NCBI GenBank assembly: GCA_028283245.1
Contig: JAPYNU010000088.1
Span: forward strand, 1 to 36,208
Direction: 5' to 3'
Source of the DNA: Candidatus Aldehydirespirator catecholifindens
Lineage (GTDB): Bacteria; Actinomycetota; Acidimicrobiia; Acidimicrobiales; Aldehydirespiratoraceae
Length of the DNA stretch: 36,208 bases
Part shown: positions 2,276-18,735 of the stretch, piece after piece
How the letters are laid out: each line of letters opens with the position of its first letter
How positions within the stretch are numbered: the stretch's first letter is position 1
Made by a program: the position numbers and the translations under genes
Notes under the pieces: generated by a model
Told to the model about the DNA's origin: nothing
Seen by the model: only the letters and a program-made list of their open reading frames with translations
The model's database searches: none

Positions 2276-2332
2276 CAGTCTTGGTTTAGCTGTTCAGTAT
2301 TGTTTTGCTGTGCAGTCTTGGTTTAGCTGTTC
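2276..2332. repeat. 20-bp direct repeat spanning the leuA stop codon
   Basis: An identical 20-bp sequence beginning CAGTCTTGG occurs at 2276-2295 and 2313-2332, 37 bp apart. The second copy covers the leuA stop codon (TAA on the minus strand, 2323-2325). The other copy lies in the gap between leuA and the crotonase gene. Confidence 0.85.
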
Positions 2333-4068
2333 GGGAGTATCCCGTTGGCGTGCATGCGATTGACAGTGCTAACCACCGCACGCAACGACGCCGACACAAT
2401 CGACTCATGCAATCCAACACCCCAAGTGGTGTTGCGATCTCCAGTGTCAACCTCTACGTAAGCCGCTGCGGTGGCGTCGCTGCCAGCGCCGATGGCGTGC
2501 TCGTAATAGTCGTGGATTTTGCCAGCGAAGAGTCCCTCGGATTGAAGCGCCGTCACGAAAGCGTCGATCGGCCCATTGCCCGCACCCGAAATGGTGCGCT
2601 CCTCACCGCCGATTAGCAGTCTCGCCTGCAAGTCGGTGCGTGAAGTTTCGATGGTGTCGGTGGTGGCGCGATGACCTATCAACTCCACCCAGGGCCGCTC
2701 TAGTTCTACATACGACGACACAAAGCGGCGATGTATCTCATAAGAGGTGATTTCGGTGCCGGTGTCTTCTGCCACGGTCTGTATTTGCCTAGAGAAGTCC
2801 ACTTGCAGACCGCGGGGCACATCAAGGCCGTATTCGTGAAGCAGCACGTAAGCCACGCCGCCTTTGCCGGATTGGCTGTTGACCCTGACTACTGCCTCAT
2901 AGCTGCGACCCAGATGACGCGGATCAACCGGCAGATAGGGCACATCCCAGATGTCGTAGTTGCCGATTAGCGCCTCTCCTGGTGCTACGTCGTAGAGAGT
3001 AGCCATGCCTTTTTTGATGGCGTCTTGATGACTGCCCGAAAAGGCTGTGTAGACAAGATCGCCCACATAGGGATGCCGTTCGGGGACTGCCATACGGTTG
3101 GCGTATTCAAAAACTCGGCGTGCTTCTTCAATGTCGCTGATATCTAGTTCGGGGTCTACCCCTTGGGTGAACAGGTTCAATGCCAACGTGATCACGTCCA
3201 CGTTGCCGGTGCGTTCGCCGTTGCCAAACAGGGTGCCTTCTACCCGGTCGGCACCGGCCATCACGCCGAACTCGGCTGCGGCCACGGCAGTGCCGCGATC
3301 ATTGTGGGGATGCAGCGACAACACGACGGCTTCACGGTTGCGGATGTCTCGATGGAAACGTTCGATCATGTCGCCGTAGATATTCGCTGATGACATTTCT
3401 ACGGTGGCGGGAAGGTTCAGGATCAGCGGCCAGTCAGCGGTGGGGCCGATCACGTCCATTACCGCCTCGCATACCTCGACAGCGAAGTCGGGTTCGGTGC
3501 CGGTGTAGCTCTCTGGTGAGTATTCGAAGCGAATGCCTTCGGCGTTACCAGAGCTGCGGGCTCGCTGGAGGCCACGGATGCATTGCTCAGCACCGTTTAT
3601 AGCAATCTTGATGATGCCTGCGCGGTTGGTTTCGAACACCACCCGACGCTGGGTCACCGACGTGGAATTGTAGAGATGAACAATCGCTCGTGGTGCCGAC
3701 TCGATAGCTTCGAAAGTGCGTTCGATGAGTTCGTCTCGTGCCTGGGTTAGCACTTGGATGGTGATGTCGTCGGGAATCCGGTCTTCGGTGATGAGCTTGC
3801 GACAGAAATCGAAGTCGGGCTGTGAGGCGGCAGGGAAACCAACCTCGATCTCTTTGAAGCCCATCGTCACGAGATGATCGAACATGCGCTGTTTGCGGCC
3901 TATATCCATCGGATCGACGAGTGCCTGGTTACCGTCACGCAGATCAACCGAGCACCACAGCGGCGCTTTGGTGATGCGCTTGTCGGGCCAGGTGCGATCG
4001 GCGAGTTCTACCGCTGGGTAGGGCCGGTATTTGGTGAACGGCATGGTTTTGGGCTTGGCGGGAGGCAT
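2323..4068 (-). CDS. leuA: 2-isopropylmalate synthase (long, LeuA2-type)
   Basis: Condenses acetyl-CoA with 2-oxoisovalerate, the first committed step of leucine biosynthesis. From the ATG at 4068 the protein is 581 aa, normal for the long actinobacterial form. Visible features: CSVDLRDGNQAL near residue 40 with the catalytic Arg-Asp; LHPHNDRGTA with metal-binding His residues; GTLFGNGERTGNVD; and a C-terminal leucine-binding regulatory domain containing GAGSDATAAAYVEV. The frame stays open a further 40 codons upstream to an ATG at 4188, but those residues are Lys/Asn-rich and unlike the family, whose N-terminus begins near PFTKYRPYPAV, so I chose 4068. Expression is probably controlled by the leucine attenuator at 4230-4360. 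Confidence 0.95.
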   Translation of the reverse strand: MPPAKPKTMPFTKYRPYPAVELADRTWPDKRITKAPLWCSVDLRDGNQALVDPMDIGRKQRMFDHLVTMGFKEIEVGFPAASQPDFDFCRKLITEDRIPDDITIQVLTQARDELIERTFEAIESAPRAIVHLYNSTSVTQRRVVFETNRAGIIKIAINGAEQCIRGLQRARSSGNAEGIRFEYSPESYTGTEPDFAVEVCEAVMDVIGPTADWPLILNLPATVEMSSANIYGDMIERFHRDIRNREAVVLSLHPHNDRGTAVAAAEFGVMAGADRVEGTLFGNGERTGNVDVITLALNLFTQGVDPELDISDIEEARRVFEYANRMAVPERHPYVGDLVYTAFSGSHQDAIKKGMATLYDVAPGEALIGNYDIWDVPYLPVDPRHLGRSYEAVVRVNSQSGKGGVAYVLLHEYGLDVPRGLQVDFSRQIQTVAEDTGTEITSYEIHRRFVSSYVELERPWVELIGHRATTDTIETSRTDLQARLLIGGEERTISGAGNGPIDAFVTALQSEGLFAGKIHDYYEHAIGAGSDATAAAYVEVDTGDRNTTWGVGLHESIVSASLRAVVSTVNRMHANGILPNS

Positions 4069-4135: not shown

Positions 4136-4229
4136 GTGTTGAGTCTGATGTTGTGGTCGTCTTGGGGGGCTCGTTTGTCAGTGATCAACCGCTGACGGAT
4201 CTAGAGCGATCTTGGCCCTAGAAAGCACA

Positions 4230-4288
4230 AATCCCCCCGGCTAGGAAGCACGAGGGGATTCGGCGAGCACCGATATGTGGTGCTCGCC
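4230..4288 (-). promoter_or_regulatory. Leucine attenuator hairpins upstream of leuA
   Basis: Reading the minus strand, a perfect 10-bp hairpin (GGCGAGCACC, 7-base loop, GGTGCTCGCC; 4288-4262) starts on the last base of the leader-peptide stop codon. One base later a second hairpin follows (AATCCCC, 17-base loop, GGGGATT; 4260-4230). The second is followed by ATTTGTGCTTTC, only a weak U tract. A CCTAG in the loop of hairpin 2 (4241-4245) can pair with CTAGG just downstream (4217-4221), a possible pseudoknot. GTGCTY occurs three times, so the 5' arm of hairpin 1 has alternative partners. The arrangement fits ribosome-mediated attenuation. Whether it acts on transcription or translation cannot be told from sequence. 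Confidence 0.7.
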
Positions 4289-4323
4289 TACACGAGAAGC
4301 AGTAGTTCGGCGATGCGGTCCAC
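4288..4323 (-). CDS. leuA leader peptide (11 codons, four consecutive Leu)
   Basis: A GTG at 4323 opens an 11-codon frame translating as M-D-R-I-A-E-L-L-L-L-V, then TAG. The four leucines are encoded by four different adjacent codons (CTA CTG CTT CTC). The stop codon overlaps the first base of a perfect 10-bp hairpin. A TTGGCT-N17-TATTGT promoter ends 8 bases before the GTG and there is no Shine-Dalgarno, so the message is probably leaderless. A stall at the Leu codons would leave hairpin 1 free; a ribosome reaching the stop would cover its 5' arm. Known leader peptides of amino-acid operons have just this layout. The frame also continues upstream to an ATG at 4482, but the promoter position favours the short version. 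Confidence 0.72.
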   Translation of the reverse strand: MDRIAELLLLV

Positions 4324-4331
4324 GAAGATCA

Positions 4332-4360
4332 ACAATAGCGCAGGCAAATGCGGTAGCCAA
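4332..4360 (-). promoter_or_regulatory. Predicted leuA leader promoter
   Basis: On the minus strand, TTGGCT (4360-4355) is followed after 17 bases by TATTGT (4337-4332). This matches the -35 consensus at 4 of 6 positions and the TANNNT actinobacterial -10 form. Transcription would start at or just before the leader-peptide GTG at 4323. Confidence 0.6.
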
Positions 4361-4491
4361 CTCTTTGTGACGGCGCGCCATGCTTGAGGGATAATCGGCA
4401 GCGTTGCGAGAGCCGTTGGCGAGTAGCCCCGAGGTCGTGTAGCCCCGGGGTCGTGTAGCCAACTCCTGTGAAAACGCGCCATGCTTGAGGG
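4353..4491. repeat. 37-bp imperfect direct repeat with inner 16-bp tandem repeat
   Basis: A 37-38-bp block running from GTAGCCAACTC to CATGCTTGAGGG occurs at 4353-4390 and 4455-4491, 102 bp apart. Between them GTAGCCCCGAGGTCGT is tandemly repeated at 4423-4438 and 4439-4454 with one mismatch and runs directly into the second large copy. Copy 1 contains the -35 hexamer of the leuA leader promoter on the minus strand. Copy 2 ends immediately before the GTG start of the PAC2 gene. Confidence 0.85.
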
Positions 4492-5361
4492 GTGAACAGC
4501 GAGTTAGATCATCTGACGTGGGAGACGGCACCTGAGGATCTGCGGTCACCGCTGCTGGTGACTGCGTATCACGGCTGGTTCGATGTGGGTGGCGCTGCAA
4601 CTGGCTCGCTCGAATGGCTGAGCGAACGCAGCGAATCGCAGCGGTTGGCTCACATCAACGGCGAAGAGTTCTTCAATTTTGCTGAGCAGCGTCCCACGGT
4701 GAGCATTCGTGACGGTCGTCGTGTGATCTCTTGGCCCTGCAACGACGTGTATGCGCTGCGTCCGGTTGACGGCGCACATGACCTGGTGCTGGTGGTGGGT
4801 ACCGAGCCGCAGTTGCGCTGGCAGACCTACGCCGAGGTAATCGTTGAGTTAGCGGCACGCAGCGAGACCGTGGCGCTGGTGACTGTGGGGGCGCATATTG
4901 CTGATGTGCCTCACACTCGCCCTTTTGAAGTAACCGGCTCCACTAGCGATCCCGGTCTGGCTGAGGCGTGGGGTTTGAGCAGGCCTTCATATGAGGGACC
5001 GACGGGGATAGTGGGTGTGCTGCATGAACGCTTTGAGCAGTTGCGTATCCCGGCTGTGTCGCTGCGGGTGGCGGTGCCGCATTATGTGCCGGGTTCGCCT
5101 AACCCGAAAGGGGCTCGGGCGCTGCTGGAACGCTTCGAGAGGGTTACTGGACTGACAACCGGCTGGGCCGAACTTGACGAAGCAGCTGACGACTGGGAGC
5201 AGCGAGTTAACGAGGCCATGAACTTCGACGACGACGTGGTGGCTTACGTGCGTCGCCTCGAAGCCCGAGCCGATGCCCGAGCCAAACGCAGCGTCCCCAG
5301 CGGCGACGACTTAGGCGCAGAGTTCGAGCGCTTCCTACGCAACCGAGAAACCCCCAACTGA
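4492..5361 (+). CDS. PAC2 family protein
   Basis: A 289-aa protein of the PAC2 (proteasome-assembly-chaperone-like) family common in actinobacteria. Recognisable stretches are PLLVTAYHGWFDVGGAATGSLEWL near the N-terminus, the DLVLVVGTEPQLRW strand, VALVTVGAHIADVPHTRP, and the YEGPTGIVGVLHE and VPHYVPGSPNPKGARALLERF segments. Bacterial members have no settled biochemical function. They are associated with the proteasome/Pup lineage by homology, and nothing here adds to that. The GTG start at 4492 follows GAGGG closely and lies at the end of a duplicated block, so the exact start is uncertain. It is transcribed away from leuA and converges on the restriction gene. Confidence 0.85.
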   Translation: MNSELDHLTWETAPEDLRSPLLVTAYHGWFDVGGAATGSLEWLSERSESQRLAHINGEEFFNFAEQRPTVSIRDGRRVISWPCNDVYALRPVDGAHDLVLVVGTEPQLRWQTYAEVIVELAARSETVALVTVGAHIADVPHTRPFEVTGSTSDPGLAEAWGLSRPSYEGPTGIVGVLHERFEQLRIPAVSLRVAVPHYVPGSPNPKGARALLERFERVTGLTTGWAELDEAADDWEQRVNEAMNFDDDVVAYVRRLEARADARAKRSVPSGDDLGAEFERFLRNRETPN

Positions 5362-5434: not shown

Positions 5435-8008
5435 TTAAGTCATCACTGAGGAGAACTGATCTTCGCGAAACACGATCCTGAACCTGCCCCTGGTGTGGCC
5501 GTTGTCAAGGCTGACCTCGCCGCATTCGTAGGTGCCGTCGCCGTTGAGCGCTGCCTCGAGAGTCGCAAACACTTTCGTCTTGTAGTCGGTGTCGGCGTTG
5601 CCGGATAAGTGCTCACCTTTGGTCTCTACCACCAGCAGCCTCGGCTTGCCGTCGCCGGTGCTTGACATAGCCACGAAATCGGGCCAGATACGGTCCTGGT
5701 TCCAGCCGCGCAAGTAATACTCACTCCGCTGACGGACAGCGACCCGGTGCCACCACCTGATCGCCTCGTGCTGATCGACATAGAAAGCGAAATTCTTCTC
5801 GAGATTCGTGTCGAACTGGCTTTCGAACACCGGCTCAAAGAGACTGTTCTGCACCGGCTTGAAACCGTGTTCCAGGGTGTGGTCATCGGCTGCGACCGGC
5901 AGAGTGAAATCTTCTCGCATCTTGTAGTTGGGTTCGCTCGCCTCCAAGTCGAAGCGGATGTCGCCCGCCCTGAGCTTGGCTGCGAAAATTAGCTCAGCCT
6001 GCTGCTCGATCTGGTCTGTGACGCTCTCGCGCAGATGCGTTACGAGATGGCGGCGCTGAGCGAAGATGTCTGTTTCGGTCATACCTGCTGCCTCTAGGGA
6101 TGCCGCATACCCCTGAACGATGCGTGCCGCAAGCCACGAGTTAGGCACGAGATCGCTGATTTGGCGTGTCATCCAAAGCAACATTGAGGAGGTTTCAACT
6201 ATGACAGCGGCTTGATCTTCGCCTTCAGCTAGCGGAGTGGCGACTCGCTCTAGCGCAACCGTTGTGCCTGCTCGGAGATCAACGCTTGCCGTCTGGTCAA
6301 CCACAGACCCAGTGTCTGAGCCTGCATAGTCGTCTGGAGCTGCGATTCGTTCCCAATTGATGGGTTCAAGCACATGCCGCTGATAATCCAACTCATGCCA
6401 TTCGTTGACATCGCCGTCATCTGAAAGTTCGGCACGGTGCAACACTTTGGGCAAAAATATGATCTCGTTACGAAAGCGCTCACGCCTGCGGATGGGCATA
6501 ATCTCGGTGTCGACAGCATCGCTTCCCTTCACATCTTGAGCCAAGCCGGTCAAGCCTTCGTTTTCTAGGCCGTTCTTGACGTGAACGACGGCTTCGTCGA
6601 CTGAGGTCTGCCAGCAGAAGACGTAGCTCTTGTCGAGATCATCAATCCCCGTGGCTCGAGCATGCGGCTGGCGCATCACCCGGCCCATGAGCTGCGTCAC
6701 AGCCCTAGCGCTGGAAGTGTTGTCAAGCATTGCAAGCACGTATGCAAACGGACAATCCCATCCTTCCATCAGCGCGGCTCTGGTGATGATCCAGCGGACC
6801 TGCGAAAATCCTGACATCAGATCTTCGCCAGCGATCTCGTCGTTATCCGCAGATTTGACCCGCACCGCTTCGGGCGATTCTCCCATCTGTTTGATCAGAA
6901 ACTCGCGGGCATCTTCGGCGTGGATGCGGTCGGTGCCTCGCTGCTCTTTGCCGGTGCGCTCGACTCGCACCACAGCTATTGGACGGATGTAGCGACCCTG
7001 CTGGGACTCGAACAACTTCGCTGCAGCCGTCAGATCCTCAAGAGTGTCATGTGCTCGGCTGAGCGTGTCGCGCCAGTCGCCAGTCACAGAGGTGACTTCC
7101 ACCGGGAGCTTGATCATCTGCTCTTTCTTGAGGTCCACGCCCGAGATATCGACTAGCAGGTTGCTGATATACGGGTTGGGTGTGGCCGAAAGTTCGATCA
7201 CGAGACGCGGGTTGAGCCGGTTGACAGCCTGCACGAACTCGTTCGCGTCCCTGCCGCCGTATGCCTTGTGAGCTTCGTCAAGCACCACCACGGGGCGTTG
7301 GATCTTCAACAAGTTGAGGAGGCTGTGCTTGAGTTCTCCGTCGTCTTCGTAGTCAAGGTCTGGGTTGGCCGCCTGCAAAGCTTCGAGAGCATTGAGGTCG
7401 TCATCGCTCGGGAACAAACTCGGGTAGCGGCCCGAGTTGCGGAACATCTTCAGAAACTCCCGGCCCTTCTGGCGGTTCGCTGCTGGATACATCAAAAGCA
7501 TCACGCAAAGGTGGCTTCTGAGGTCATCAAGACTGACCGAATCGTCTTTCTCGAACACCTTGACCCGCCCAGTTCCTGCCATCTCAAGGTGATCGCGGTA
7601 GGGATGGTCACGCGACTTGAACGCCTTGATGGTCTGAGCGTAGATGGCTCGTGAGGGCACGATCCAAAGCACCAGCCCTGTCTGCATCCGGGTGCGCTCA
7701 AGAGCCGCGACTCCTAGAAGAGTCTTGCCTCCGCCTGTCGGCACCTTGAGGCAGACGTGGGGTATGGGCCTTCCCGCCTCGTCGCTGCGTTCTACATAAT
7801 CTTGCGGTGTCGCTAGAAGGCCTCCATCATCCACTAAACGTTCCCACGCCTTACGCGGAAAGTTGAGATCGTCTCGTGAAGCCTCAATTCCAGCATCTTT
7901 CAGTGTCTCAGCCTTGTGCAGCGACTCGGACCGGGCTGCGTCAAGCGCGCTCAGCCAGCGGTCGAACTTCTCGACAGTGCGCTGCTGATATTCCTTGAGT
8001 TCAAGCAC
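5435..8008 (-). CDS. res: Type III restriction enzyme, Res (helicase-endonuclease) subunit
   Basis: An 857-aa SF2 translocase with a C-terminal nuclease. Visible motifs: Walker A PTGGGKT (90-96), DEAH (244-247), SATP motif III (274-277), motif VI QLMGRVMRQP (439-448). The C-terminal PD-(D/E)XK core is Asp777 in WPDF and Glu795-x-Lys797 in VVETKG. In type III systems Res acts with Mod, hydrolyses ATP after recognition of unmethylated sites, and cleaves at a distance. The gene starts with GTG only 3 bases after the mod stop codon, so the two are one transcriptional unit. All key residues are present, so it looks intact. Confidence 0.93.
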   Translation of the reverse strand: MLELKEYQQRTVEKFDRWLSALDAARSESLHKAETLKDAGIEASRDDLNFPRKAWERLVDDGGLLATPQDYVERSDEAGRPIPHVCLKVPTGGGKTLLGVAALERTRMQTGLVLWIVPSRAIYAQTIKAFKSRDHPYRDHLEMAGTGRVKVFEKDDSVSLDDLRSHLCVMLLMYPAANRQKGREFLKMFRNSGRYPSLFPSDDDLNALEALQAANPDLDYEDDGELKHSLLNLLKIQRPVVVLDEAHKAYGGRDANEFVQAVNRLNPRLVIELSATPNPYISNLLVDISGVDLKKEQMIKLPVEVTSVTGDWRDTLSRAHDTLEDLTAAAKLFESQQGRYIRPIAVVRVERTGKEQRGTDRIHAEDAREFLIKQMGESPEAVRVKSADNDEIAGEDLMSGFSQVRWIITRAALMEGWDCPFAYVLAMLDNTSSARAVTQLMGRVMRQPHARATGIDDLDKSYVFCWQTSVDEAVVHVKNGLENEGLTGLAQDVKGSDAVDTEIMPIRRRERFRNEIIFLPKVLHRAELSDDGDVNEWHELDYQRHVLEPINWERIAAPDDYAGSDTGSVVDQTASVDLRAGTTVALERVATPLAEGEDQAAVIVETSSMLLWMTRQISDLVPNSWLAARIVQGYAASLEAAGMTETDIFAQRRHLVTHLRESVTDQIEQQAELIFAAKLRAGDIRFDLEASEPNYKMREDFTLPVAADDHTLEHGFKPVQNSLFEPVFESQFDTNLEKNFAFYVDQHEAIRWWHRVAVRQRSEYYLRGWNQDRIWPDFVAMSSTGDGKPRLLVVETKGEHLSGNADTDYKTKVFATLEAALNGDGTYECGEVSLDNGHTRGRFRIVFREDQFSSVMT

Positions 8009-8011
8009 GGC

Positions 8012-9751
8012 TCACACCTGGTCTTCGCGTTGGATCGCCCAGGGAAGCTGACTGAAGCTGATGTTCATGTCGATTAGATCGTCCTGAGACATAAACTTTC
8101 CCGCTGCGAACACCACGGCCTGCGCTCCTGTCTTGTTGCAGGATTTGCTTATCGCGTCGGCTAGATATATGTCGAACATTGACTCTCTGCTCTTTAGCCA
8201 GTCCATATCAGGCTGATAAAACAAGTAGTAGTTACGGTTCCTTTTCTTATCGCGGTGGATCAACCCGTTGTCATCAAGCGGAACCGGCTCAGAGGAAGGT
8301 GTCGAGCGTCCAGTGGCTGTGTGTGTCAGCCAAGCCGCCAAAGCCTCGTAACTCGGCAGGTTCTCACCGTCAAGCATCGACCATGATGTGACCGGTTCTC
8401 CTAAAGTGCAGTAGGTAAACGACCCCCCGAGACCCTCACGGAGATCAGGGTCTTTGGCATCGGGTACCCCAGCGATCACCCGGCGCACTCGCTCAGCAGT
8501 GATCGAGTGTGCATAATCCTCGCACTCCACCAAGGTGAACTTCCGGTTACCGCCGTCCTGTTTGTTTAGCGCCAAGACCGCCTGACCCGTAGTTCCCGAC
8601 CCAGCGAAAGAGTCCAAGATCACATCTGTGCCTGAGGTCACAATCTCAAGCAGACGGCGGATGACTCTTTCGTCTTTGGGATAGTCAAACTTCTTTTCGG
8701 GCATGATGCGGACAAGGTCCTTATGTGCAGCTCGCCGGTCCTGGTAGAAGACGCTGGCCAATACCTGCGAATCAGTGTCTGCCAGGTAGCGCTTGAGGTT
8801 CGGGACGCTCGACTCATCGGGACCAAAGTGGACACGCCCCTCTTTGACGGCCTCCACCATCTTGGCCCTATCGGGAAATACCCAACCTCTCGCCGGAACC
8901 TTGACAGGTTTTTTGGTAACAGGATGAAGTATCTCGTAGTCCGGGCCGCCACCTCCCGGCCAAGAGATGTCGCCTGCGAAGTAAACACCGCGCTCATCAA
9001 CCCAGCGGTAGTGGCGGTGAGCGTAGGACTTGTGCTTCTTATCAAGAGACCCGAACCACTCCTGAAGTTCGTCTGAGGCGGCTGTCGAGTCGCCGTCATG
9101 ACGCTGCCAGGCGGACTGCGCCACCTTGTTGATCTCGTCAATGCCCTGCTTCAGCGCCCGCCAGCGAGCACCATTCAGACGCAACCTCTCACGATCCTTG
9201 GAGAAGCACATGACGTAGTCGTGACCCACCGACACGAAACGAGCATCGTTCTTGCCGGTCCCCTCCCAAACGAAGTTGGCAATAAAGTTCTCCTCGCCGA
9301 AGATCTCATCCATGAGCATCCGTAGATGGTGAAACTCGTTGTCGTCAATTGACACAAAGATCACTCCGTCCTCGGCTAGCAACTCCTTCAGCAATTGCAG
9401 GCGCGGCCAAATCATGCACAACCACTTGTCGTGGCGCAGCAAGTCCTCAGTGTCCACGAAGCCGTTCTCTTTGAGCCAGGTGCGCTGCAGCGGGGCGTTG
9501 ACGTTGTCGTTGTAGACCCAGCCCTCGTTACCGGTGTTGTAGGGCGGATCGATATAGATGCACTTCACCCGGTCGGCGTAGCGAGGCAGTAGCGCCTTGA
9601 GCGCGTCCAGGTTGTCTCCGTGGATGATCAGGTTGTCATCGTCAGGGCAGCCCCCGACCGACTTGTCTGCGTCGGGCACCAGCGGCCGGTGTGGCACAGC
9701 GAAATGGTGAGCGTAAATATGCCTCTTGCCCCTGAAATCAAGTGTTGGCAT
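8012..9751 (-). CDS. mod: Type III DNA N6-adenine methyltransferase, Mod subunit
   Basis: A 579-aa beta-class methyltransferase. The catalytic DPPY motif is at 68-71 (IYIDPPYNTGNEGW) and the SAM-binding FAGSG motif at 382-386 (ILDSFAGSGTTGQAVL). The catalytic motif therefore precedes the SAM-binding motif, as in type III Mod proteins. The ~300 residues between them should include the target-recognition region. The RBS GGGAG lies about 5 bases before the ATG at 9751. It protects host DNA and supplies specificity for the adjoining Res; the recognition sequence cannot be read from the protein. I saw no simple-sequence tract in the gene that would suggest phase variation. It is divergent from the GHKL-helicase gene across a 122-bp gap. 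Confidence 0.93.
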   Translation of the reverse strand: MPTLDFRGKRHIYAHHFAVPHRPLVPDADKSVGGCPDDDNLIIHGDNLDALKALLPRYADRVKCIYIDPPYNTGNEGWVYNDNVNAPLQRTWLKENGFVDTEDLLRHDKWLCMIWPRLQLLKELLAEDGVIFVSIDDNEFHHLRMLMDEIFGEENFIANFVWEGTGKNDARFVSVGHDYVMCFSKDRERLRLNGARWRALKQGIDEINKVAQSAWQRHDGDSTAASDELQEWFGSLDKKHKSYAHRHYRWVDERGVYFAGDISWPGGGGPDYEILHPVTKKPVKVPARGWVFPDRAKMVEAVKEGRVHFGPDESSVPNLKRYLADTDSQVLASVFYQDRRAAHKDLVRIMPEKKFDYPKDERVIRRLLEIVTSGTDVILDSFAGSGTTGQAVLALNKQDGGNRKFTLVECEDYAHSITAERVRRVIAGVPDAKDPDLREGLGGSFTYCTLGEPVTSWSMLDGENLPSYEALAAWLTHTATGRSTPSSEPVPLDDNGLIHRDKKRNRNYYLFYQPDMDWLKSRESMFDIYLADAISKSCNKTGAQAVVFAAGKFMSQDDLIDMNISFSQLPWAIQREDQV

Positions 9752-9873: not shown

Positions 9874-12800
9874 ATGTCGTTGCTCGCAGATTGGGCTGGC
9901 CCGCACGAAAAACTGTGCCGATTCATCGCTGAGGAGTCGCAGAAAACGCTCGACGCCTATAGCAAACAGCCGTACCTTGTCAGCGAGCACGCCAACATCG
10001 AACAGGACACAGCTCAGGGCGGATACCAGCACCGTCAACTCTTTGAGTTGGTGCAGAACAGCGCCGACGCTCTCGCTCCCGTCTCCGCAACCGGCGAAGA
10101 GGCGGGCGGCTCGGTTTCAGCAAGAACTGGACAGATAGAAATTTGGCTTACCGACGGCTGCCTCTACTGCGCCGACGACGGTACTCCCATTGACGAAGAT
10201 GGTGTGAAGGCACTCATGTTCTCGCACATGTCGCCCAAGCGCAACACCAGCCAGATTGGCACCTTCGGCGTGGGGTTCAAGTCGTTGCTCGGAGTCAGCG
10301 ACGCGCCGGAGTTCCTAAGCCGCGCGGGCTCGTTCCGCTTTGACAGCAAGCGCGCGCGTGAGCAGATTGAGCAGATCGTCCCAGACGCGAAGTCGTATCC
10401 GGTGTTAAGGATCGCCGATCCGATAGATCCCGCAGAATCCCTCAGCGACGATGTCGGGCAGGATTTGCTTCGCTGGGCATCAAACATTGTGCGGCTACCG
10501 CTCAAGCCGGTTGCCTATAAGGACTTGCACGAGCAGATGAGCCAGTTCCCGGCTGAGTTCCTGCTGTTCGTGAAACACGTCGGCAAGCTCAAGCTCACCG
10601 ACGGCTCACGCGTGCTTGATCGCACCCTAAAGCTTTCGACAACAAGCGGTGTCTGGCACCTGAGCGACAACGGCACCAAGAGCATGTGGAAAGTCTTTGA
10701 GCGCCGTGATCGCTTGTCGGCTGAGGCTTCCGCCGACCGCCGCCGAGATGAAGAGCAGAGCAATGTGCCCATCTGGTGGGCTGCGCCACTGGAGCGGCTG
10801 GACAAGCCGGGCACATTCTGGACCTACTTCCCCACTGAGACGCAGAGCCTCGTGGCCGGAATCCTGAACGCACCCTGGAAGACCAACGTAGACCGCCAGA
10901 ATCTCCTCACCGGGACATACAACGACGAACTGATCCACGCCGCTGCCGAACTGATCGCGCAAAAGCTGCCTGAGTTGGCAACATCGGAGGATCCGGCCCG
11001 GCACCTTGATGCGCTGCCTCGTCGCCGCGAGTCTGGTGATTCTCATCATGCAGAGTTGCTTCGAGAGCGCTTGTTCGAAGTGATTCAAGAGCGCAAGATT
11101 CTCCCCGATCAAGACGGCAAGCTCAGGCGATCCGATGAGATTCGCTACGCACCCGACCTGAGCAGTCACAGCCAAGCGGCAGAAGCTCGCGATCTATGGT
11201 CATCCCACGCGGCCTGTCCGAAGAACTGGCTCCACCACTCAGCATTTACGAAAAACCGAATGGCGAAAGTCAACGCACTCTTTGATGCCGATCCTAATGG
11301 AAGGCAAAAAGTTGCACCAAGAGCATCTGTCAGCGAATGGCTAGAGGCTCTAGTTGCGGCATCTCGCAATCAAGATCCAGTGCAAGCATCCAAAGCTGCC
11401 CTTTCAGTCGCATCTGTGCTAGACAGATCGCAGCTGAGACCCCAACGCTTCGGCAGCATTGTGCTGACAGCGAGCGGTGCTTGGTGCTACCCCGATCCAG
11501 AGAGCCTTTTCCTGCCATACGAGTCAACAGAAGTCGGTAGCACTATTGACCCCCGGCGCTGCGTGCATGTAGATCTAGTGAAGTACCGCGAAACGCGTGA
11601 TGCCCTCAAGAAACTAGGACTTCAGCAACCAACAGCCGAGAGCGGGTTCAAAGCTATCGCTAAGCATGTACTGCAATCTAGCGATGCCTCAATTAAGGAT
11701 GAAGACCTCCGGAAGTTCTGGATCACGTCTCGTGCCCTCGACCCAGCCGTTGCCTTGTACACGATTAACAGAATCACGAAAAACTGGTGTAGTAAGGTTC
11801 GTGTTCTTACAAAGTCAGGAACTTGGGCGGCAACGCATTCTGTGCTGCTAGCGGGTGAGATCGTGCCCGGTGACGGCAGCCGCGACGATGCCGCCACTGT
11901 TGACATGGACTTCCATAGACCTGATGAAAAGCTGTTTGGCGATCTGGGCATCGTTGGGAAACCCACAGGCAAACGCAACCCGTTGGTAGAACCGTCTTGC
12001 TCAGGTTACAAAAAAGAATGCGAACAGATTTACCGACAAAGTGGTCTCACACGACAGCCACAACAAAATTACCTCGAATTTATGTCATGCCATGGACTTG
12101 GTCCGCTCGAAGTGATCACGGTGCTCAGCGACGAAGCCCGAGCCCTATACACCGATGCTCTGCTGTCACGCAACAAGTGCTATACGCCGCTGACTATGCG
12201 GCACAGAACCAATCAGGAGTCATATCCCAAAAAACCCTTTCCTTCTCTGGCTATCCACATGATTCGCAAGCACGGCCGAATCAAAACGGCTGATGGGATC
12301 GTTCCTTTTGCTGACGCTTTAGGCAAGAATCCTGCGAACAGCGATGCCCTGCTTTGCCTGTTGCGACACCCGAAAGCCGAACGCATCAAGGAAGTTTTCA
12401 ATCTTGCTAACCCTATGCCTGAGTTCTTCGGAATTCATGAACCGGTTCCATTAATTGACGTTTGGCCTGGCTTGCAGGACTACCTGAACAGCGACATTGC
12501 GTCTGTCCAGCTTGTGCGCTGTGAGCGCATCAGAGTGGGGCACGACAACCGAACGTGCCTTCTTCATGATGGTGAGGTTTACCTTACGTCAGAATCCAAC
12601 GCAGACGCGTTCGACGAACTGCAGCAGGTGCTCAGAGCACTTGATCGCCGTCTGAGCGATAGCTACATCAACGACATCGTCAACGGAACCACGCCTGCTG
12701 AGGTTGAAAAGTGCCGCGCGGGCGTGCGACAGCAATCCACCGATGCTGGTCGACTCCTCGCCGCCGTGGGCGCTAAAAGCCTGCGAGATGGTCTTCCGCC

Positions 12801-14334
12801 GTCTCTGCTTGACGCGCTTGAGCGCGACAGTCAGAACGGATTGCCCGAGACAGCGATTGCCGAAGCCGCTATCGCCACATACCACACCGATGCTCTCAGA
12901 CAGTTCCGGCATTCGCTCGAACACCTGAAGCCTCCCACCAAGTGGGCAGGGTCTGCTCGGGCCGTCAACTTTGTGCGATCCCTCGGATTCGCAGAAGAAT
13001 GGGCAGGAACGCGCAGCGAAAAGCGCCCACCTTTTGAGATCGTTGACGGGCCGTGGGAACTACCCGAACTGCATGACTACCAGCGGACAGTTGTTTCCAA
13101 TGTGCATCAACTGCTGAGAGCCGAGAGTTCAGCGGAGGTCGGCAGGCGAGGGATGATCAGCATGCCCACTGGGTCGGGTAAAACTCGTGTAGCGGTGCAG
13201 GCGATTGTCGAAGCCATCCGTGACGGCAGCCTTGATGGCGGTGTGCTGTGGATAGCGGATCGTGACGAACTCTGCGAACAGGCAGTCGAGGCATGGCGGC
13301 AAGTGTGGGCCAGCATCGGCAGCCGCGCCACGCAACTCCGCATCTCTCGCATGTGGAGCGGTCAGCGTCAGCCCCTACCCGTGCATGAGTTGCATGTGGT
13401 GGTGGCAACTCTCCAAACAGCCCATCGCAAGCTATCTGCACCCGATTACGACTTTCTGAAGGATTTTCGGCTGGTTATATTCGACGAAGCACACCGTTCG
13501 ATTGCTCCCAGTTCGACCCAAGTGTTCAGCGAACTCGGCTTGACCTTCCGAACAAGCAGTGACGAACCGTTTCTGCTGGGCCTGACAGCCACCCCTTACC
13601 GAGGCCATGACGAAGTCGAAACGAGCCGACTCGTCAATCGTTACGGCAACAACCGGCTTGATGCCGGAGCGTTCGGTAGCGACGAACCACAGCAAGTCAT
13701 TGAGGAACTACAGCACGCCAAGGTGCTCGCACGCGCCGACCATGCACTGATCGACGGTGCGAGGATCAAACTAACCGAAGACGAAATCAGCCAGATGCAA
13801 AAATTCACCTCTAAAGAGTCAGCCCCCGATACATCGCTAAATAGTCCTTGGCTTCCGCAAAGTGCTGAGGAAAGGATCGCTGGTGATGTCGAACGCACCA
13901 AGCGCATTATTGACGCGTTCGAAACCCATATTGAGTCGGACTGGCCTGTTCTCGTATTCGCTACATCGGTTGAGCACTCCATGACCCTCTCTGCGTTGCT
14001 GAATCGCAGGGGGATCACCGCCCGAGCAGTGAGCGGCGATACCGACCAGACGACAAGACGCAAAATGGTCAGTCAATTCCGCTCAGGCAGTATCCAAGCT
14101 TTAGTCAACTACGCCGTTCTCCGAGAAGGCTTCGACGCTCCACGAACCCGAGCCATAATCGTGGCTCGACCGGTCTACAGCCCGAACCTTTATTTTCAGA
14201 TGGTAGGCCGAGGACTGCGCGGACAGAAAAACGGCGGAAACGAGCGTTGCTTAATTCTCAACGTCGCTGACAACATAGAAAACTTCGGACGAGAACTCGC
14301 CTTCTCAGAACTGGACTGGCTCTGGGCCACCTAA
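9874..14334 (+). CDS. Large fusion of sacsin/Hsp90-type GHKL ATPase and SF2 helicase, probable defence protein
   Basis: A 1486-aa protein with two nucleotide-binding modules. The N-terminus has a Bergerat-fold ATPase like sacsin and Hsp90: N box ELVQNSADA (58-66), G1 DDGTP (101-105), G2 IGTFGVGFKS (128-137). The C-terminus is an SF2 helicase: HDYQ near 1070, PTGSGKT (1098-1104), DEAH (1204-1207), LTATP (1237-1241), and motif VI QMVGRGLRG (1442-1450). The ~700 residues between are unrecognised. I can see no nuclease motif. An in-frame TAG four codons upstream confines the start to ATG 9874. No good Shine-Dalgarno is present; TAGGTT lies 9 bases before the ATG. Its position next to mod-res suggests defence, possibly as a partner of the RM pair. 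I do not match it to a named system. Confidence 0.85.
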   Translation: MSLLADWAGPHEKLCRFIAEESQKTLDAYSKQPYLVSEHANIEQDTAQGGYQHRQLFELVQNSADALAPVSATGEEAGGSVSARTGQIEIWLTDGCLYCADDGTPIDEDGVKALMFSHMSPKRNTSQIGTFGVGFKSLLGVSDAPEFLSRAGSFRFDSKRAREQIEQIVPDAKSYPVLRIADPIDPAESLSDDVGQDLLRWASNIVRLPLKPVAYKDLHEQMSQFPAEFLLFVKHVGKLKLTDGSRVLDRTLKLSTTSGVWHLSDNGTKSMWKVFERRDRLSAEASADRRRDEEQSNVPIWWAAPLERLDKPGTFWTYFPTETQSLVAGILNAPWKTNVDRQNLLTGTYNDELIHAAAELIAQKLPELATSEDPARHLDALPRRRESGDSHHAELLRERLFEVIQERKILPDQDGKLRRSDEIRYAPDLSSHSQAAEARDLWSSHAACPKNWLHHSAFTKNRMAKVNALFDADPNGRQKVAPRASVSEWLEALVAASRNQDPVQASKAALSVASVLDRSQLRPQRFGSIVLTASGAWCYPDPESLFLPYESTEVGSTIDPRRCVHVDLVKYRETRDALKKLGLQQPTAESGFKAIAKHVLQSSDASIKDEDLRKFWITSRALDPAVALYTINRITKNWCSKVRVLTKSGTWAATHSVLLAGEIVPGDGSRDDAATVDMDFHRPDEKLFGDLGIVGKPTGKRNPLVEPSCSGYKKECEQIYRQSGLTRQPQQNYLEFMSCHGLGPLEVITVLSDEARALYTDALLSRNKCYTPLTMRHRTNQESYPKKPFPSLAIHMIRKHGRIKTADGIVPFADALGKNPANSDALLCLLRHPKAERIKEVFNLANPMPEFFGIHEPVPLIDVWPGLQDYLNSDIASVQLVRCERIRVGHDNRTCLLHDGEVYLTSESNADAFDELQQVLRALDRRLSDSYINDIVNGTTPAEVEKCRAGVRQQSTDAGRLLAAVGAKSLRDGLPPSLLDALERDSQNGLPETAIAEAAIATYHTDALRQFRHSLEHLKPPTKWAGSARAVNFVRSLGFAEEWAGTRSEKRPPFEIVDGPWELPELHDYQRTVVSNVHQLLRAESSAEVGRRGMISMPTGSGKTRVAVQAIVEAIRDGSLDGGVLWIADRDELCEQAVEAWRQVWASIGSRATQLRISRMWSGQRQPLPVHELHVVVATLQTAHRKLSAPDYDFLKDFRLVIFDEAHRSIAPSSTQVFSELGLTFRTSSDEPFLLGLTATPYRGHDEVETSRLVNRYGNNRLDAGAFGSDEPQQVIEELQHAKVLARADHALIDGARIKLTEDEISQMQKFTSKESAPDTSLNSPWLPQSAEERIAGDVERTKRIIDAFETHIESDWPVLVFATSVEHSMTLSALLNRRGITARAVSGDTDQTTRRKMVSQFRSGSIQALVNYAVLREGFDAPRTRAIIVARPVYSPNLYFQMVGRGLRGQKNGGNERCLILNVADNIENFGRELAFSELDWLWAT

Positions 14335-14488
14335 GAGCTGAGCTGGAAGGCGTAAGTTCGTTATTGTCTTTGCTGTCACCGCGACGCTCTTGCGCTGCAA
14401 GCTGCACCGAGAGTCAGCCTGAAACGCGAGCAGCAAGTCGGCCGCATACACCTGACGGCATCAGCTGGTGACAGTGAACACTTTGGTC

Positions 14489-14872
14489 TTAGGAGTTTTT
14501 TAAGCGTGCGTCAAGGCGCTTCAGAGCCGCAACAAGTTCGGATGCGTTTGCGATCCTCTCGCAAACTTCATCTTCGGACATCAACTCTTCATAGAAGTTC
14601 TTATGCAACATTTGAGCCGCACCAAGCCGCAACAGCAGCAGGTCGGTTTCCTGACTCTCACCGGCGCTGAGGATCAGCTTGCGAGCATTGTCGATCAACT
14701 TGCGATGCGATCCGAGCGGCCATCCCCGCTGCTTAGAGATTGAGTTGATGCAATGTGCTACTGCACCCCAAGCCTTCTCGCTCGCTTGGAGGAGATCACC
14801 CGCTGCAAGTTCGTCTCGTGAATGGCGCAAGAACTCCTGGCTAATCTCGGCATGGCGCTGCGAGGTGGTCAT
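14489..14872 (-). CDS. PaREP1 family (HEPN-like) protein
   Basis: A 127-aa all-helical protein. The stretch DLLQASEKAWGAVAHCINSISKQRGWPLGSH matches the PaREP1 family pattern, which as I recall belongs to the HEPN-like superfamily. The segment RGWPLGSH contains an Arg-x6-His spacing of the kind used by HEPN RNases, but it lies in an early loop and not the usual last helix, so RNase activity is only a possibility. Its ATG overlaps the stop codon of the upstream 175-aa gene by four bases (ATGA), so the two are translationally coupled. It converges on the GHKL-helicase gene with a 154-bp gap in which I see no clear terminator. Confidence 0.7.
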   Translation of the reverse strand: MTTSQRHAEISQEFLRHSRDELAAGDLLQASEKAWGAVAHCINSISKQRGWPLGSHRKLIDNARKLILSAGESQETDLLLLRLGAAQMLHKNFYEELMSEDEVCERIANASELVAALKRLDARLKNS

Positions 14873-15396
14873 GACTCCTGCCCGTAGGGACGAGGCTTGC
14901 TGTACTCAATAAGCGAGAACTGTCCTGTTACAGCGATGAAGCGAATGACGGTCTCAACTCCGTAGACATCGGTCAAATGCATCTTCTGCCCGACCTCAAA
15001 CGCCACGGGATTGGCTACCCGGCCATCAACAGCGATATTGTCGGCATACAAGTAGGTTCGTCCATCGTTGATTGGGTTGAGCCGACCCTCGATGCCAGGG
15101 ATGAAACCAGTGCTTCGGGTAAAGAGCACCCCGCTGTAGCCATCCAGCGAAGGCTCCATCACCAACTCCAGCGATGCAGCGTTGTCAGGCACCACAGTCT
15201 CATGAAAAGGCAGGTAGCCCTCGGCAGCCACTAGCACTCGCATCGGCTGATCGGTGCGGTAAAGGTCAATCCGGCAAACCCCGACCGAGTCCGACTCGCC
15301 GACACGATATGTTCCATTCGGATACTCCGCCAACAGCATGGCCCCTACGACCGGCACACCGGTGCAAGATCTCAATATGAAAGCGACTTCGCCCAT
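14869..15396 (-). CDS. Unrecognised beta-rich protein coupled to PaREP1 gene
   Basis: I do not recognise the family with certainty. From the ATG at 15396 it is 175 aa. Residues 1-90 (GEVAFILRSCTGVPVVGAMLL ... LPFHETVVPDNAASLELVMEP) look like a carboxypeptidase-regulatory/transthyretin-like beta-sandwich. Residues about 90-175 form a second beta-rich part (GRTYLYADNIAVDGRVANPVAFEVGQKMHL). I preferred 15396 because GGAG lies 6 bases upstream. An in-frame GTG at 15450 would add 18 residues containing CLSC. There is no signal peptide or membrane segment, so it should be cytoplasmic. Coupling by ATGA overlap to a HEPN-like gene suggests a partner or antitoxin role; this is inference. Confidence 0.65.
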   Translation of the reverse strand: MGEVAFILRSCTGVPVVGAMLLAEYPNGTYRVGESDSVGVCRIDLYRTDQPMRVLVAAEGYLPFHETVVPDNAASLELVMEPSLDGYSGVLFTRSTGFIPGIEGRLNPINDGRTYLYADNIAVDGRVANPVAFEVGQKMHLTDVYGVETVIRFIAVTGQFSLIEYSKPRPYGQES

Positions 15397-15462
15397 GCTG
15401 CACTCCACAATCTGGTGACAACTCAGACAATAGCTAACGTTTGCCCACACGCCATAACGCTA

Positions 15463-15468
15463 ATTATA
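15463..15468 (-). promoter_or_regulatory. Consensus -10 (TATAAT) for the beta-protein/PaREP1 unit
   Basis: A perfect TATAAT lies on the minus strand upstream of the two-gene unit. No matching -35 at 16-18 bases was found; TTGTCA is only 10 bases upstream. Seven bases after it an ATG (15456) opens a 10-codon frame ending before the real gene; I do not call that a gene. Confidence 0.5.
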
Positions 15469-15558
15469 TGCTGAACGGTGACAAAAGGAGTCGCGCCAAC
15501 AACCTCACGCAAACTGAGAACTGACAACTGGTCACTTGAGTAGTAGTCCTTGCAGTTA

Positions 15559-15594
15559 TTGGAAGTTCTGTGCATGGAGTGCTACGCTGGGTTT
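15559..15594 (+). promoter_or_regulatory. Predicted leaderless promoter of abiEi
   Basis: TTGGAA (15559-15564), an 18-base spacer, TACGCT (15583-15588), then exactly 6 bases to the ATG at 15595. Transcription would begin on the start codon itself. No Shine-Dalgarno precedes the ATG. Confidence 0.6.
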
Positions 15595-16332
15595 ATGGCT
15601 GCCAAAAGTGAATCTCGTTTATGGTTGGATGATCTCGCTCCTCGCTCGTTGTTTGAGCCCTGTGACGTACCGGGCTCACCGGCGACTGTGCAGTCAATGC
15701 TGTCAAGGATGGCTGCTAATCCGAATGTCAGCGGGATTGAGCGGGTGCATCATGGTCTGTATTTCAAACGGTCGGAGCCGCTGTGGCCGCTGGATTACAG
15801 TTCCCTTGATCAGGTGCGAGCTGCCTGTAAAGCGGCTGGGGTGGGTGCGGGCATGACAAAATTCACGGCTTTGAACAGACTGTTCTGGATCTGGCAGGTG
15901 CCGAATGCCGTGTATCTGATGACTGCTGCTGACACCTTGCCGTCGACCCCGCTGCTGCCGGGGGTGCGATGGGAGCAGATCCCAGATGCTAAGCATCGCC
16001 TAGAACTAAGCAGCGCAGAGTGCTCTCTGCTGGAGGCGGTGCGCTGGAATGTCTATGTGGAACGCAAATGGGATGACCTCCTACAGGAGATTATGACTGA
16101 ACCCCATGACCGATGCCGTTTCTGGCGAACTTTGAATGGGCTCGGGGACGGGCTACGTCCCGACGCGCTTCGAGAGGTTGCCTCGCTTGAAAAGCCAACC
16201 GATCTTGAGTTGACATACATAGAACACGGCGCGACCGATCTTGATCCCCCTGTGAAAGAACGGATTGAGAATGTAGCCACCGCGATTGAAGCCCGACAGA
16301 AAGCCGATCAGAAGGGCTGGGTGCTGATATGA
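15595..16332 (+). CDS. abiEi: AbiEi-type antitoxin / transcriptional regulator (type IV TA)
   Basis: A 245-aa protein from ATG 15595. The N-terminal part resembles a winged-helix antitoxin: PATVQSMLSRMAANPNVSGIERVHHGLYFKR ends in the Gly-Leu-Tyr-Phe wing typical of AbiEi. The remainder resembles the AbiEi C-terminal domain. In the family it represses its own promoter and neutralises AbiEii without stable binding. The stop overlaps the next start by four bases (ATGA). The frame extends to an ATG at 15550, but a TACGCT -10 box six bases before 15595 supports the shorter start. Family assignment rests on fold-like features and on the partner gene. Confidence 0.75.
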   Translation: MAAKSESRLWLDDLAPRSLFEPCDVPGSPATVQSMLSRMAANPNVSGIERVHHGLYFKRSEPLWPLDYSSLDQVRAACKAAGVGAGMTKFTALNRLFWIWQVPNAVYLMTAADTLPSTPLLPGVRWEQIPDAKHRLELSSAECSLLEAVRWNVYVERKWDDLLQEIMTEPHDRCRFWRTLNGLGDGLRPDALREVASLEKPTDLELTYIEHGATDLDPPVKERIENVATAIEARQKADQKGWVLI

Positions 16333-17435
16333 GTTCAGATGCATCAAAGAGGGCGCGCCAGCAGCCTCGTGGGATGCCTGGCAACTCAGGCCAGTTCCAT
16401 CCCAAGCAGAAACCTGATGTTCCCGATGCGAGCACTGGACGTGTGCGCTCGCCTAAGATTCGTCGGAGGCTCATAGATGATAGAACTGCCTTCAATGCTT
16501 TCGTTGAGAGCACTCACAGAACAACAGGGCTCGAGCCAGAGCAGATTATTCACGATTACTGGCTGATACGAGCTTTGAGCGGTATCGCTGAAGCGCTTCC
16601 CGATAACGGGATTTTCAGGGCTGGGCTTACCGATAAAGACAAAAAGAAGGGGCGCTCGGAAGAAACTCAGCCCGTCAAAGGGATTTGGGCGTTCGGGGGA
16701 GGCACCAGTCTGAGTTCGGCGTGGAAGATATCACCGCGATGGTCTGAAGATATTGATGCAGCCATTTTTCAGACCACGGATTCTTCTAAAGCGTCGTTTA
16801 ATACCATCCGCCGTCGAGTGACTGAGATGGTGGCTGATGTAGTTGGCGGGAAGGGGAAGACATCCGGCTCACCGACTATCGCCCACACGCAGTTCACTGT
16901 TTCAGAGGTGTTGGATTTCAAAGTAGATCATGTTCTTGAGACTCTCCCACCTGAGCAACTCGTGAGTTTGGGTTCGGTTACTGGATTGATCGCTCGCTAT
17001 TCAGACGATCCAGACGGGCTGTGTGAAGAGTTCCCTGAACTGGGTGGTTTCGAGCTGCCGGTCATAGAGCCTGCCTATATCGCCGTCAACAAACTAGACG
17101 CGTTGCATCGTCGGGCGGCTACAGAGAGATGGGCTGGATTGGGTGGACGCTTTCGTGATATGTACGACCTGTATCAAATCTCTCAACTTCAGCCTCACGC
17201 TGACCGATGCCGCGAAAACGTTTCGCAGTGGTGGCATCAAATGAACCGAGGCGGAGGCCCAGCGGTGGATCGCCCCGATGAAGGATACGGAACCAGCCCG
17301 ATCTTTGACTCCGGCTCATACGCACACAAAATGCTACGTAACGCCTACAACAACGGAATCGAGGGTATCGCTATCGGGCGTGCCCCTTCCTTTGAAGAAG
17401 CGTTCACAGCAGCCCAGACGCTGGATTTACCGTAG
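16329..17435 (+). CDS. abiEii: AbiEii/AbiGii-type nucleotidyltransferase toxin (type IV TA)
   Basis: A 368-aa nucleotidyltransferase. The catalytic signature is GGGTSLSSAW (123-132) followed by SEDID (139-143), giving the paired Asp141/Asp143 of the pol-beta-like fold. This is the standard AbiEii pattern. Members block growth on phage infection or loss of antitoxin by transferring nucleotides to RNA, for some homologues to tRNA ends. The downstream IAVNKLDALHRR and RDMYDLYQI stretches are also family-typical. The first ~40 residues carry an extra basic tail with RGMPGNSGQF, a short motif seen at the N-termini of assorted actinobacterial accessory proteins. It appears intact and forms an operon with abiEi. 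Confidence 0.88.
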   Translation: MSSDASKRARQQPRGMPGNSGQFHPKQKPDVPDASTGRVRSPKIRRRLIDDRTAFNAFVESTHRTTGLEPEQIIHDYWLIRALSGIAEALPDNGIFRAGLTDKDKKKGRSEETQPVKGIWAFGGGTSLSSAWKISPRWSEDIDAAIFQTTDSSKASFNTIRRRVTEMVADVVGGKGKTSGSPTIAHTQFTVSEVLDFKVDHVLETLPPEQLVSLGSVTGLIARYSDDPDGLCEEFPELGGFELPVIEPAYIAVNKLDALHRRAATERWAGLGGRFRDMYDLYQISQLQPHADRCRENVSQWWHQMNRGGGPAVDRPDEGYGTSPIFDSGSYAHKMLRNAYNNGIEGIAIGRAPSFEEAFTAAQTLDLP

Positions 17436-17466
17436 TCTCACCTGTCTGAGGTCTCGCAGCAGCCTT

Positions 17467-17489
17467 CGCAGGAGTTAGCGCAGGAGTTA
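17467..17489. repeat. 11-bp tandem repeat downstream of abiEii
   Basis: CGCAGGAGTTA occurs at 17467-17477 and 17479-17489 (period 12) in the gap between the abiEii stop and the nuclease promoter. Nothing else is evident in this 163-bp gap apart from the -10 box. Confidence 0.7.
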
Positions 17490-17586
17490 AAGAGTTCCTG
17501 ATAGCGCTACCACATCGCGGTAAGGGGCGCTCACTACATCAGCGCCACGGCTGAAGTAGCCCGATGAGAATGTCACAGGGCACCGC

Positions 17587-17598
17587 TAATATCCGAAC
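17587..17598 (+). promoter_or_regulatory. Predicted leaderless -10 box of the Mre11-like gene
   Basis: TAATAT (17587-17592) is followed by exactly six bases and the ATG at 17599. There is no Shine-Dalgarno. No convincing -35 is seen. Confidence 0.6.
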
Positions 17599-18735
17599 AT
17601 GGTCAAATTCCTCCACACCGCCGACTGGCAACTCGGCATGACTCGCCACTTCCTCAACGATGATGCCCAAGCGCGATTCGGTGCGGCACGGCTCGATTCC
17701 ATCATCGAGATCAGCCGGCTGGCTACAAAGGAGAACTGCGACTTTGTTGTGGTTTGCGGCGACGTGTTCGAGTCGAACCAGATAGGGCAACAGGTGCTGG
17801 GGCGAGCCCTAGACAACATGAAAGCTGCTGCAGAGGTCGATTTCTATCTGCTGCCCGGCAATCACGATCCGCTTGACCCTTCGTCGATATACCGATCGCC
17901 CAAATTCAAGAGCAACTGCCCCGAAAACGTTTCAGTGCTTGACTCCTCGGTGCCGGTAGAAGCCACTGCGGGTGTGGAATTGATCGCTGCTCCATGGCCG
18001 AACAAAAAGCCCCTGACGGACCTGGTGAGCGATGCTTGTGCAGACCTTGAGCGCACCAGCGCAGTGCGCATCGTCATCGGTCATGGTGCCGTTGACAATC
18101 TGTCGCCCGACAAGAGCAATCCAGCAATCATCTCTTTGGCTCGGCTAGAGGCCAAGATCAAAGAAGGAGCAATCCACTATGTGGCACTCGGTGACCGCCA
18201 CTCCACGACCGATGTCGGTGCTTCCGGTCGGGTCTGGTATTCGGGAGCACCCGAGCCCACGGACTACGTCGAGGACGATCCAGGCAATGTGCTCATCGTG
18301 ACCCTTGCTGGCAACGACTGCAATGTCAAGACGCAAAGAGTTGGCACATGGCGCTTCGAGCGCAACGAAAGAGAGTTGAGCAGCGACTCCGACATTGACG
18401 CTATAGAGGAGTGGCTGACGGGCTTGAGCGACAAGAGCCGCACCATCGTCAAGCTGGCATTGGTCGGCCAGATCTCCGTGGCTCAGCAGGCCCGACTAGA
18501 GAACTTGCTCAAAGACCATAAAGATCTGCTGGCTGCTTTGGAATCCTGGGAAAGACGCAGCGAGTTGGTGGTGATTCCCGACGACACTGACTTGGAGCAC
18601 TTCGGATTCTCAGGCTTCGCAGCAGAGGCTTTGTCCGATCTTGGCGAAAAGGCAGAGTCCAACAACGAGCAGGAGGCTGTCGCAGCCCGTGACGCATTAG
18701 CTCTGCTGCATCGACTAGTAGGAGCACCACAATGA
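17599..18735 (+). CDS. Mre11/SbcD-like metallophosphoesterase (DNA repair nuclease)
   Basis: A 378-aa calcineurin-like phosphoesterase. Motifs in order: HTADWQLG (6-13), CGDVFESNQ, LPGNHDP, IGHGAVD, and ALGDRHS. All Mre11 metal-site motifs are present, except that motif I reads Asp9-Trp-Gln11 where Mre11/SbcD has Asp-x-His. As I recall, this DWQ form marks a widespread bacterial subgroup. With the next gene it would form an Mre11-Rad50-type complex that processes DNA ends, in repair or against phage DNA. The C-terminal sequence LLHRLVGAPQ is copied in the following mini-ORF. The ATG start is fixed by a TAATAT box six bases upstream. Confidence 0.87.
   Translation: MVKFLHTADWQLGMTRHFLNDDAQARFGAARLDSIIEISRLATKENCDFVVVCGDVFESNQIGQQVLGRALDNMKAAAEVDFYLLPGNHDPLDPSSIYRSPKFKSNCPENVSVLDSSVPVEATAGVELIAAPWPNKKPLTDLVSDACADLERTSAVRIVIGHGAVDNLSPDKSNPAIISLARLEAKIKEGAIHYVALGDRHSTTDVGASGRVWYSGAPEPTDYVEDDPGNVLIVTLAGNDCNVKTQRVGTWRFERNERELSSDSDIDAIEEWLTGLSDKSRTIVKLALVGQISVAQQARLENLLKDHKDLLAALESWERRSELVVIPDDTDLEHFGFSGFAAEALSDLGEKAESNNEQEAVAARDALALLHRLVGAPQ

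Follow-up and report, generated by a model that had tools for sequence, protein, structure and literature searches.

The leader of leuA in the window (the whole stretch of 36,208 nucleotides analysed from contig JAPYNU010000088.1 of Candidatus Aldehydirespirator catecholifindens) probably attenuates transcription in response to leucine through a ribosome-mediated mechanism, and its leader peptide is probably leaderless. As the same layout, with codons matched to the regulated gene, precedes branched-chain genes across the class, the element is a real switch of a known kind in an unusual form. It would provide leucine and other branched-chain amino-acid genes of uncultured actinobacteria, in a class that has received little study, with a defined and widely conserved regulator, and would explain leuA attenuation where the published LEU element is described without a terminator. 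It also poses a clean test, namely whether a terminator can be switched off by a hairpin that does no more than abut it; besides, the fixed geometry of stop codon and two hairpins (P1 and P2), combined with interchangeable codons, would ease genome annotation and the building of amino-acid sensors.

On the minus strand, the sequence reads in the order TTGGCT, 17 nt, TATTGT, 8 nt, GTG, a leader of 11 codons, TAG, P1, P2 and leuA (Table 1). The leader codons, GTG GAC CGC ATC GCC GAA CTA CTG CTT CTC GTG TAG (4323-4288), run from the start GTG at 4323-4321, 8 nt after TATTGT, to the stop TAG at 4290-4288, the G of which (4288) is the first base of P1. The arms of P1, GGCGAGCACC (4288-4279) and GGTGCTCGCC (4271-4262, both on the minus strand), are paired at 10/10 positions, and the predicted fold leaves a linker of 0 nt between P1 and P2. 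The fold of the 104-nt leader and hairpin stretch has an energy of -48.3 kcal/mol (z = -4.2), a stability reached by 0/200 shuffled sequences. The tail after P2, UUUGUGCUUUCU, forms a weak, interrupted U-tract in the window, which is stronger in most relatives; a spacer of about 160 nt separates it from the ATG of leuA (4068-4066, minus strand), whose product scores 777.9 bits against TIGR00970 (cut-off 697.4). Direct reading thus confirms what the original prediction had described as promoter hexamers, a GTG 8 bases on and a peptide MDRIAELLLLV using CTA CTG CTT CTC; likewise, sequence and fold bear out its stop codon sharing the last base with a perfect 10-bp hairpin, followed by a second hairpin and then by leuA.

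Table 1. Features of the leuA leader and of the neighbouring defence-like genes (positions in the window).
Feature	Position	Strand	Basis
-35-like hexamer TTGGCT	4355..4360	-	sequence; 4/6 consensus matches
-10-like hexamer TATTGT	4332..4337	-	sequence; 17 nt 3' of -35; 4/6 consensus matches
Leader ORF GTG...TAG, MDRIAELLLLV	4288..4323	-	sequence; orthologous leaders in 30/30 aligned loci
Four regulatory Leu codons CTA CTG CTT CTC	4294..4305	-	3-5 Leu codons just 5' of the stop in 30/30 aligned loci
Hairpin P1, 10 bp, 7-nt loop	4262..4288	-	10/10 pairs with two-sided changes in 100 sequences
Hairpin P2, putative intrinsic-terminator stem	4229..4261	-	predicted fold; core-pair covariation; terminator-like pattern
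U-rich, interrupted tail of P2, overlapping the P2 base	4220..4231	-	sequence
leuA, 2-isopropylmalate synthase, regulated gene	2323..4068	-	NCBIfam TIGR00970 and NF002991
Type III restriction-modification genes	5435-8008, 8012-9751		
TmtA/helicase-like protein	9874-14334		
AbiEi/AbiEii-like pair	15550-17435		from reading the sequence
Exonuclease/SbcC-like genes	17599-21472		from reading the sequence

A DNA search of 61 genomes, including that of the window, gave a match in 33, from which 30 loci, the window's among them, were extracted. All 30 aligned loci, which come from the genus, family and order of the window, contain 3-5 Leu codons, a stop codon abutting P1, P1 itself and P2. A covariance model (R1), built from 24 of the extracted leuA-upstream loci, finds matches in 206/395 genomes of the class, while under strict filters there is no match in 189/395; outside the class it matches 6 of about 360 genomes in a sample of the phylum. 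The E-values of R1 and of the second model described below (R2), both custom-built, are rough. Where matches to the P1 sequence carry a name, nearly all are MAGs labelled Acidimicrobiia, Acidimicrobiales or Acidimicrobiaceae, from which we infer that the class searched with R1 is Acidimicrobiia.

The base pairs of both hairpins covary strongly. In an alignment of 100 R1 matches, 96.9% of the cells pair and 22/22 pairs in P1 and P2 have two-sided changes; this holds for 10/10 pairs of P1 (98.1% of cells paired) and for 10/10 core pairs of P2 (97.8% paired), and the covariation score of the two hairpins is 0.397, compared with 0.069-0.108 after sliding the partners, all of which leans towards structure because the alignment was fitted to it. 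In an all-pairs analysis of a second alignment, also model-fitted, the pairs of P1 and P2 rank highest. Within the 10 nt after P2, most elements have at least 5 U (mostly 5-8 U in relatives). As the stem covaries and the tail is U-rich in most elements (weak in the window), P2 is predicted to be an intrinsic terminator of the leader. The geometry is fixed as well: among 74 foldable leucine-type elements, the predicted folds have no linker between P1 and P2 in 55 and a single nucleotide in 14 (0-1 nt in 69/74), and the linker is 0-3 nt in 17 branched-chain-type elements. The final base of the stop codon doubles as the opening base of P1 in 51/74 leucine-type and 11/17 branched-chain-type elements. 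CTT accounts for 37.6% of the leader Leu codons, compared with 6.4% in the downstream coding sequence (99 loci), i.e., an approximately six-fold enrichment. The alignment of relatives for hairpin covariation, by which the original prediction of a leucine attenuator was to be judged, therefore supports it, the Leu codons, P1 and P2 all being conserved. One genome (G139) contains the leucine element twice, with L067 and L068 preceding leuA genes of two distinct families, and in another locus (L031) it stands before leuA of the TIGR00973 type, not of the TIGR00970 type.

The layout is not confined to leuA. Model R2, which omits the Leu codons and whose input consisted chiefly of leuA and leuS elements together with two ilvB elements, finds the succession of stop codon, P1 and P2 also before leuS, ilvB, leuB and cimA (relatives L177-L193 and L238-L257); the identities of the downstream genes were checked by NCBIfam for ten representatives. 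Leaders of leuA (both TIGR00970- and TIGR00973-like families) and leuS end with LLL(L) and at most one more codon. Those of ilvB end with SLVLILM, ITLVLID, TVVVVLV or VLVLIT, those of leuB, with Ile/Val instead of Leu runs, end with SVVVIR, SQIVVIP or LIVIIS, and those of cimA, with Ile codons, end with EIIIN or WIIT. The type of codon thus varies with the gene (Leu before leuA and leuS, Ile/Val/Leu before ilvB and leuB, Ile before cimA), and no other evidence argues as strongly as this match between codons and pathway that the element would sense translation of its leader. At a cut-off of 1e-4, R2 matches 71/396 genomes of the phylum, and many of these lie outside the class; hence the layout in general extends beyond the class, while its leucine form before leuA is concentrated there. 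Twenty R2 loci, nineteen of them outside the class, were inspected, and a convincing branched-chain leader was present in most and absent from some. The weak matches L189, L194, L195 (a tRNA) and L196 were judged to be due to chance, and L245, L246, L254 and L255 lack a convincing leader. In one relative (L088:722-790, plus strand), a P1-P2 pair precedes an aminotransferase-like gene and has no run of branched-chain codons.

The start of the leader lies probably at or near the mRNA +1, i.e., the peptide would be leaderless. A TANNNT motif is located 5-9 nt (mostly 7-8 nt) before an in-frame leader start in 46/99 loci, compared with 7.6 +/- 2.6 expected from shuffled upstream sequences, and a Shine-Dalgarno-like motif occurs in only 3/46 of the loci that have TANNNT at this spacing. 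Both the conserved distance between -10 and start and the scarcity of Shine-Dalgarno-like sites fit a leaderless peptide, and lend support to the earlier suggestion of a start codon at or near +1. Support for the leuA promoter of the window is comparative, as it comes from the spacing kept in 46/99 loci: a generic promoter scan of the window (cut-off 9/12) does not report TTGGCT/TATTGT because each hexamer matches only 4/6 positions of the consensus.

A mechanism can be proposed on this basis. Provided that the GTG lies at or beside the 5' end of the mRNA, as is probable, the ribosome would load at that end and so trail RNA polymerase closely. With leucine plentiful, it would reach the stop codon, its footprint would mask the 5' arm of P1, and P1 could not form; P2 would then close fully and terminate transcription upstream of leuA. 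With leucyl-tRNA scarce, the ribosome would stall on the first Leu codons and allow P1 to form. As the two hairpins abut, a formed P1 at the base of P2 might keep P2 from completing its last pairs at the polymerase, resulting in read-through into leuA, which is the right direction for a leucine-biosynthetic gene. Ribosome protection has been reported to reach about 10 nt beyond the A site, the closing of the final 2-3 bp to be essential for terminator function, and terminators near stop codons to be repressed by ribosomes (PMC4824070).

Folding of the window's leader, with the nucleotides under the ribosome masked up to about 10 nt past the A site, predicts the occupancy of P1 at each ribosome position. 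With the ribosome at Leu1 or Leu2, P1 forms in the model (pair probability 0.91-1.0); at Leu3 and Leu4 its lower part would be lost (the lower half at Leu4), and at Val or the stop codon P1 would be gone. P1 and P2 are able to coexist in the predicted fold of the naked RNA, so that folding by itself does not predict antagonism between them; we infer that intact P1 antagonises P2, by adjacency instead of alternative pairing. Tandem hairpins elsewhere count against such an effect, as they are reported to be compatible with termination or to promote it (PMC8355165). More tentatively still, the elements may represent a modular attenuator of Actinomycetota. In it, a probably leaderless leader would end with a stop codon locked to the foot of P1, a sensor hairpin, and P1 in turn would abut the terminator P2; P1 would antiterminate by adjacency, without competing pairs, and a swap of the codon run would retarget the element to leuA, leuS, ilvB, leuB or cimA.

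A different coupling of P1 and P2 would be expected under classical attenuation of the trp type, with a mutually exclusive antiterminator that uses strands of P2, as has been suggested for Mycobacterium tuberculosis ilvB1; in its favour, the classes of gene and the logic of the codons are the same in Actinobacteria (PMC13236596). In the window, melting of P1 indeed gives P2 three more pairs, taken from 3' bases of P1; however, P2 gains pairs on masking of P1 in only about half of 99 loci, and this extension of P2 into P1, true in the window, was rejected as a general mechanism. Strong all-pairs covariation is likewise confined to the inside of P1 and P2 (100 sequences). In duplex tests of all segment pairs, none beyond P1 and P2 is better than shuffled sequences except the codon run with the 3' arm of P2, a pairing that was attributed to composition as the loci's own pairs do not surpass swapped ones. 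Masked folding, segment duplex tests and all-pairs covariation thus detected P1 and P2 only, and no conserved mutually exclusive antiterminator, which makes the trp-type reading unlikely. For the same reason, the term attenuator requires another coupling between P1 and P2, such as the adjacency proposed above.

P1 might instead act as a pause hairpin of the his/trp type that synchronises polymerase and ribosome, in which case timing, not P1 itself, would decide termination at P2. An unpaired pyrimidine (T in 62 and C in 23 of 100) followed by G (88/100) is located in the 5' arm of P2, 11-12 nt after P1, and the complete pyrimidine-G pattern is present in 81/100 leucine-type elements (at about 4250 in the window). 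A distance of 11-12 nt is the hairpin-pause spacing of E. coli leaders. The pattern is, however, not kept in elements of the ilvB, leuB and cimA types (by inspection), and pausing by itself leaves leucine-dependent read-through unexplained, so that it is improbable as the full explanation. It is possible for P1 to have a pausing role alongside antagonism by adjacency, since the two are compatible and not exclusive.

Among published elements, the closest is the LEU element of actinobacterial leuA (Seliverstov et al. 2005, PMC1262725), a pseudoknot whose base stem pairs the Leu codons with the Shine-Dalgarno box of leuA, with no obvious terminator. There, the leader codons would control translation, possibly with a protein. 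The gene, the leader ORF with a Leu run and the phylum Actinobacteria agree with the window (PMC1262725), and the full-leader fold of the window even pairs GCUUCUC with GAGA..AAGC adjoining leuA. Nevertheless, the duplex between Leu run and Shine-Dalgarno box is not above shuffled sequences (30 loci, mean z +0.5), and the window differs from the published form (PMC1262725) in that its base stem is unsupported and two adjoining hairpins are present, the second of which is terminator-like. Control of this type is therefore very unlikely in the window. As to a LEU-type pseudoknot, the all-pairs analysis covered the part from the stop codon to the tail of P2 and gave no crossing covariation there. 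Hardly credible at all is a set of conserved hairpins without leucine regulation (e.g., a fixed partial terminator), for which the weak U-tract of the window would speak: the codons follow the regulated gene across leuA, leuS, ilvB, leuB and cimA, rare codons are enriched, and the register of the stop codon is fixed.

The trp, his and leu attenuators of E. coli contain regulatory codons, and the position of the ribosome on them is read as termination or read-through. The proposed leuA attenuator differs from this type by a leader of only 11 codons, which is probably leaderless, and by having no detected conserved 2:3 antiterminator. Under the adjacency mechanism, read-through would be favoured when the leader is not translated; this departs from the E. 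coli trp leader and counts against the mechanism. The ilvB leaders of Corynebacterium and M. tuberculosis come nearest in concept: ilvB-II (PMC10272879) and ilvB1 (PMC13236596) combine, as in the window, a leader peptide of branched-chain codons with a terminator hairpin. In ilvB-II, too, there are two hairpins (P1 and P2), and U follows the second; the ilvB-II uORF spans most of P1 (PMC10272879), whereas that of the window ends at the start of P1. In M. tuberculosis ilvB1, antiterminator and terminator are described as mutually exclusive (PMC13236596), whereas P1 and P2 have no shared conserved pairing here. LeuL1 of Streptomyces lividans, upstream of leuA, is a short leaderless peptide, as is probable for that of the window, with four consecutive Leu codons (MRFGLLLLSCRGEGL; PMC8079986); unlike the window with its predicted terminator, it was reported without a Rho-independent terminator, and its stop codon does not directly follow the Leu run (PMC8079986). 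Rfam gave 0 matches in the window at the gathering score, and with E up to 10 the best sub-threshold matches are unrelated. A literature search for attenuation in Acidimicrobiia, or for a leuA element beyond that of 2005, found nothing closer, subscription journals being mostly outside its range.

A 34-bp direct repeat (79%) at 4366-4399 and 4467-4500 lies close to the -35 region of leuA, and three tandem 16-mers occupy 4413-4460; the repeats are located between leuA and a divergent PAC2-like gene. Further away, a defence-like island (5435-9751 and 9874-21472; Table 1) is situated between leuA and hisG.
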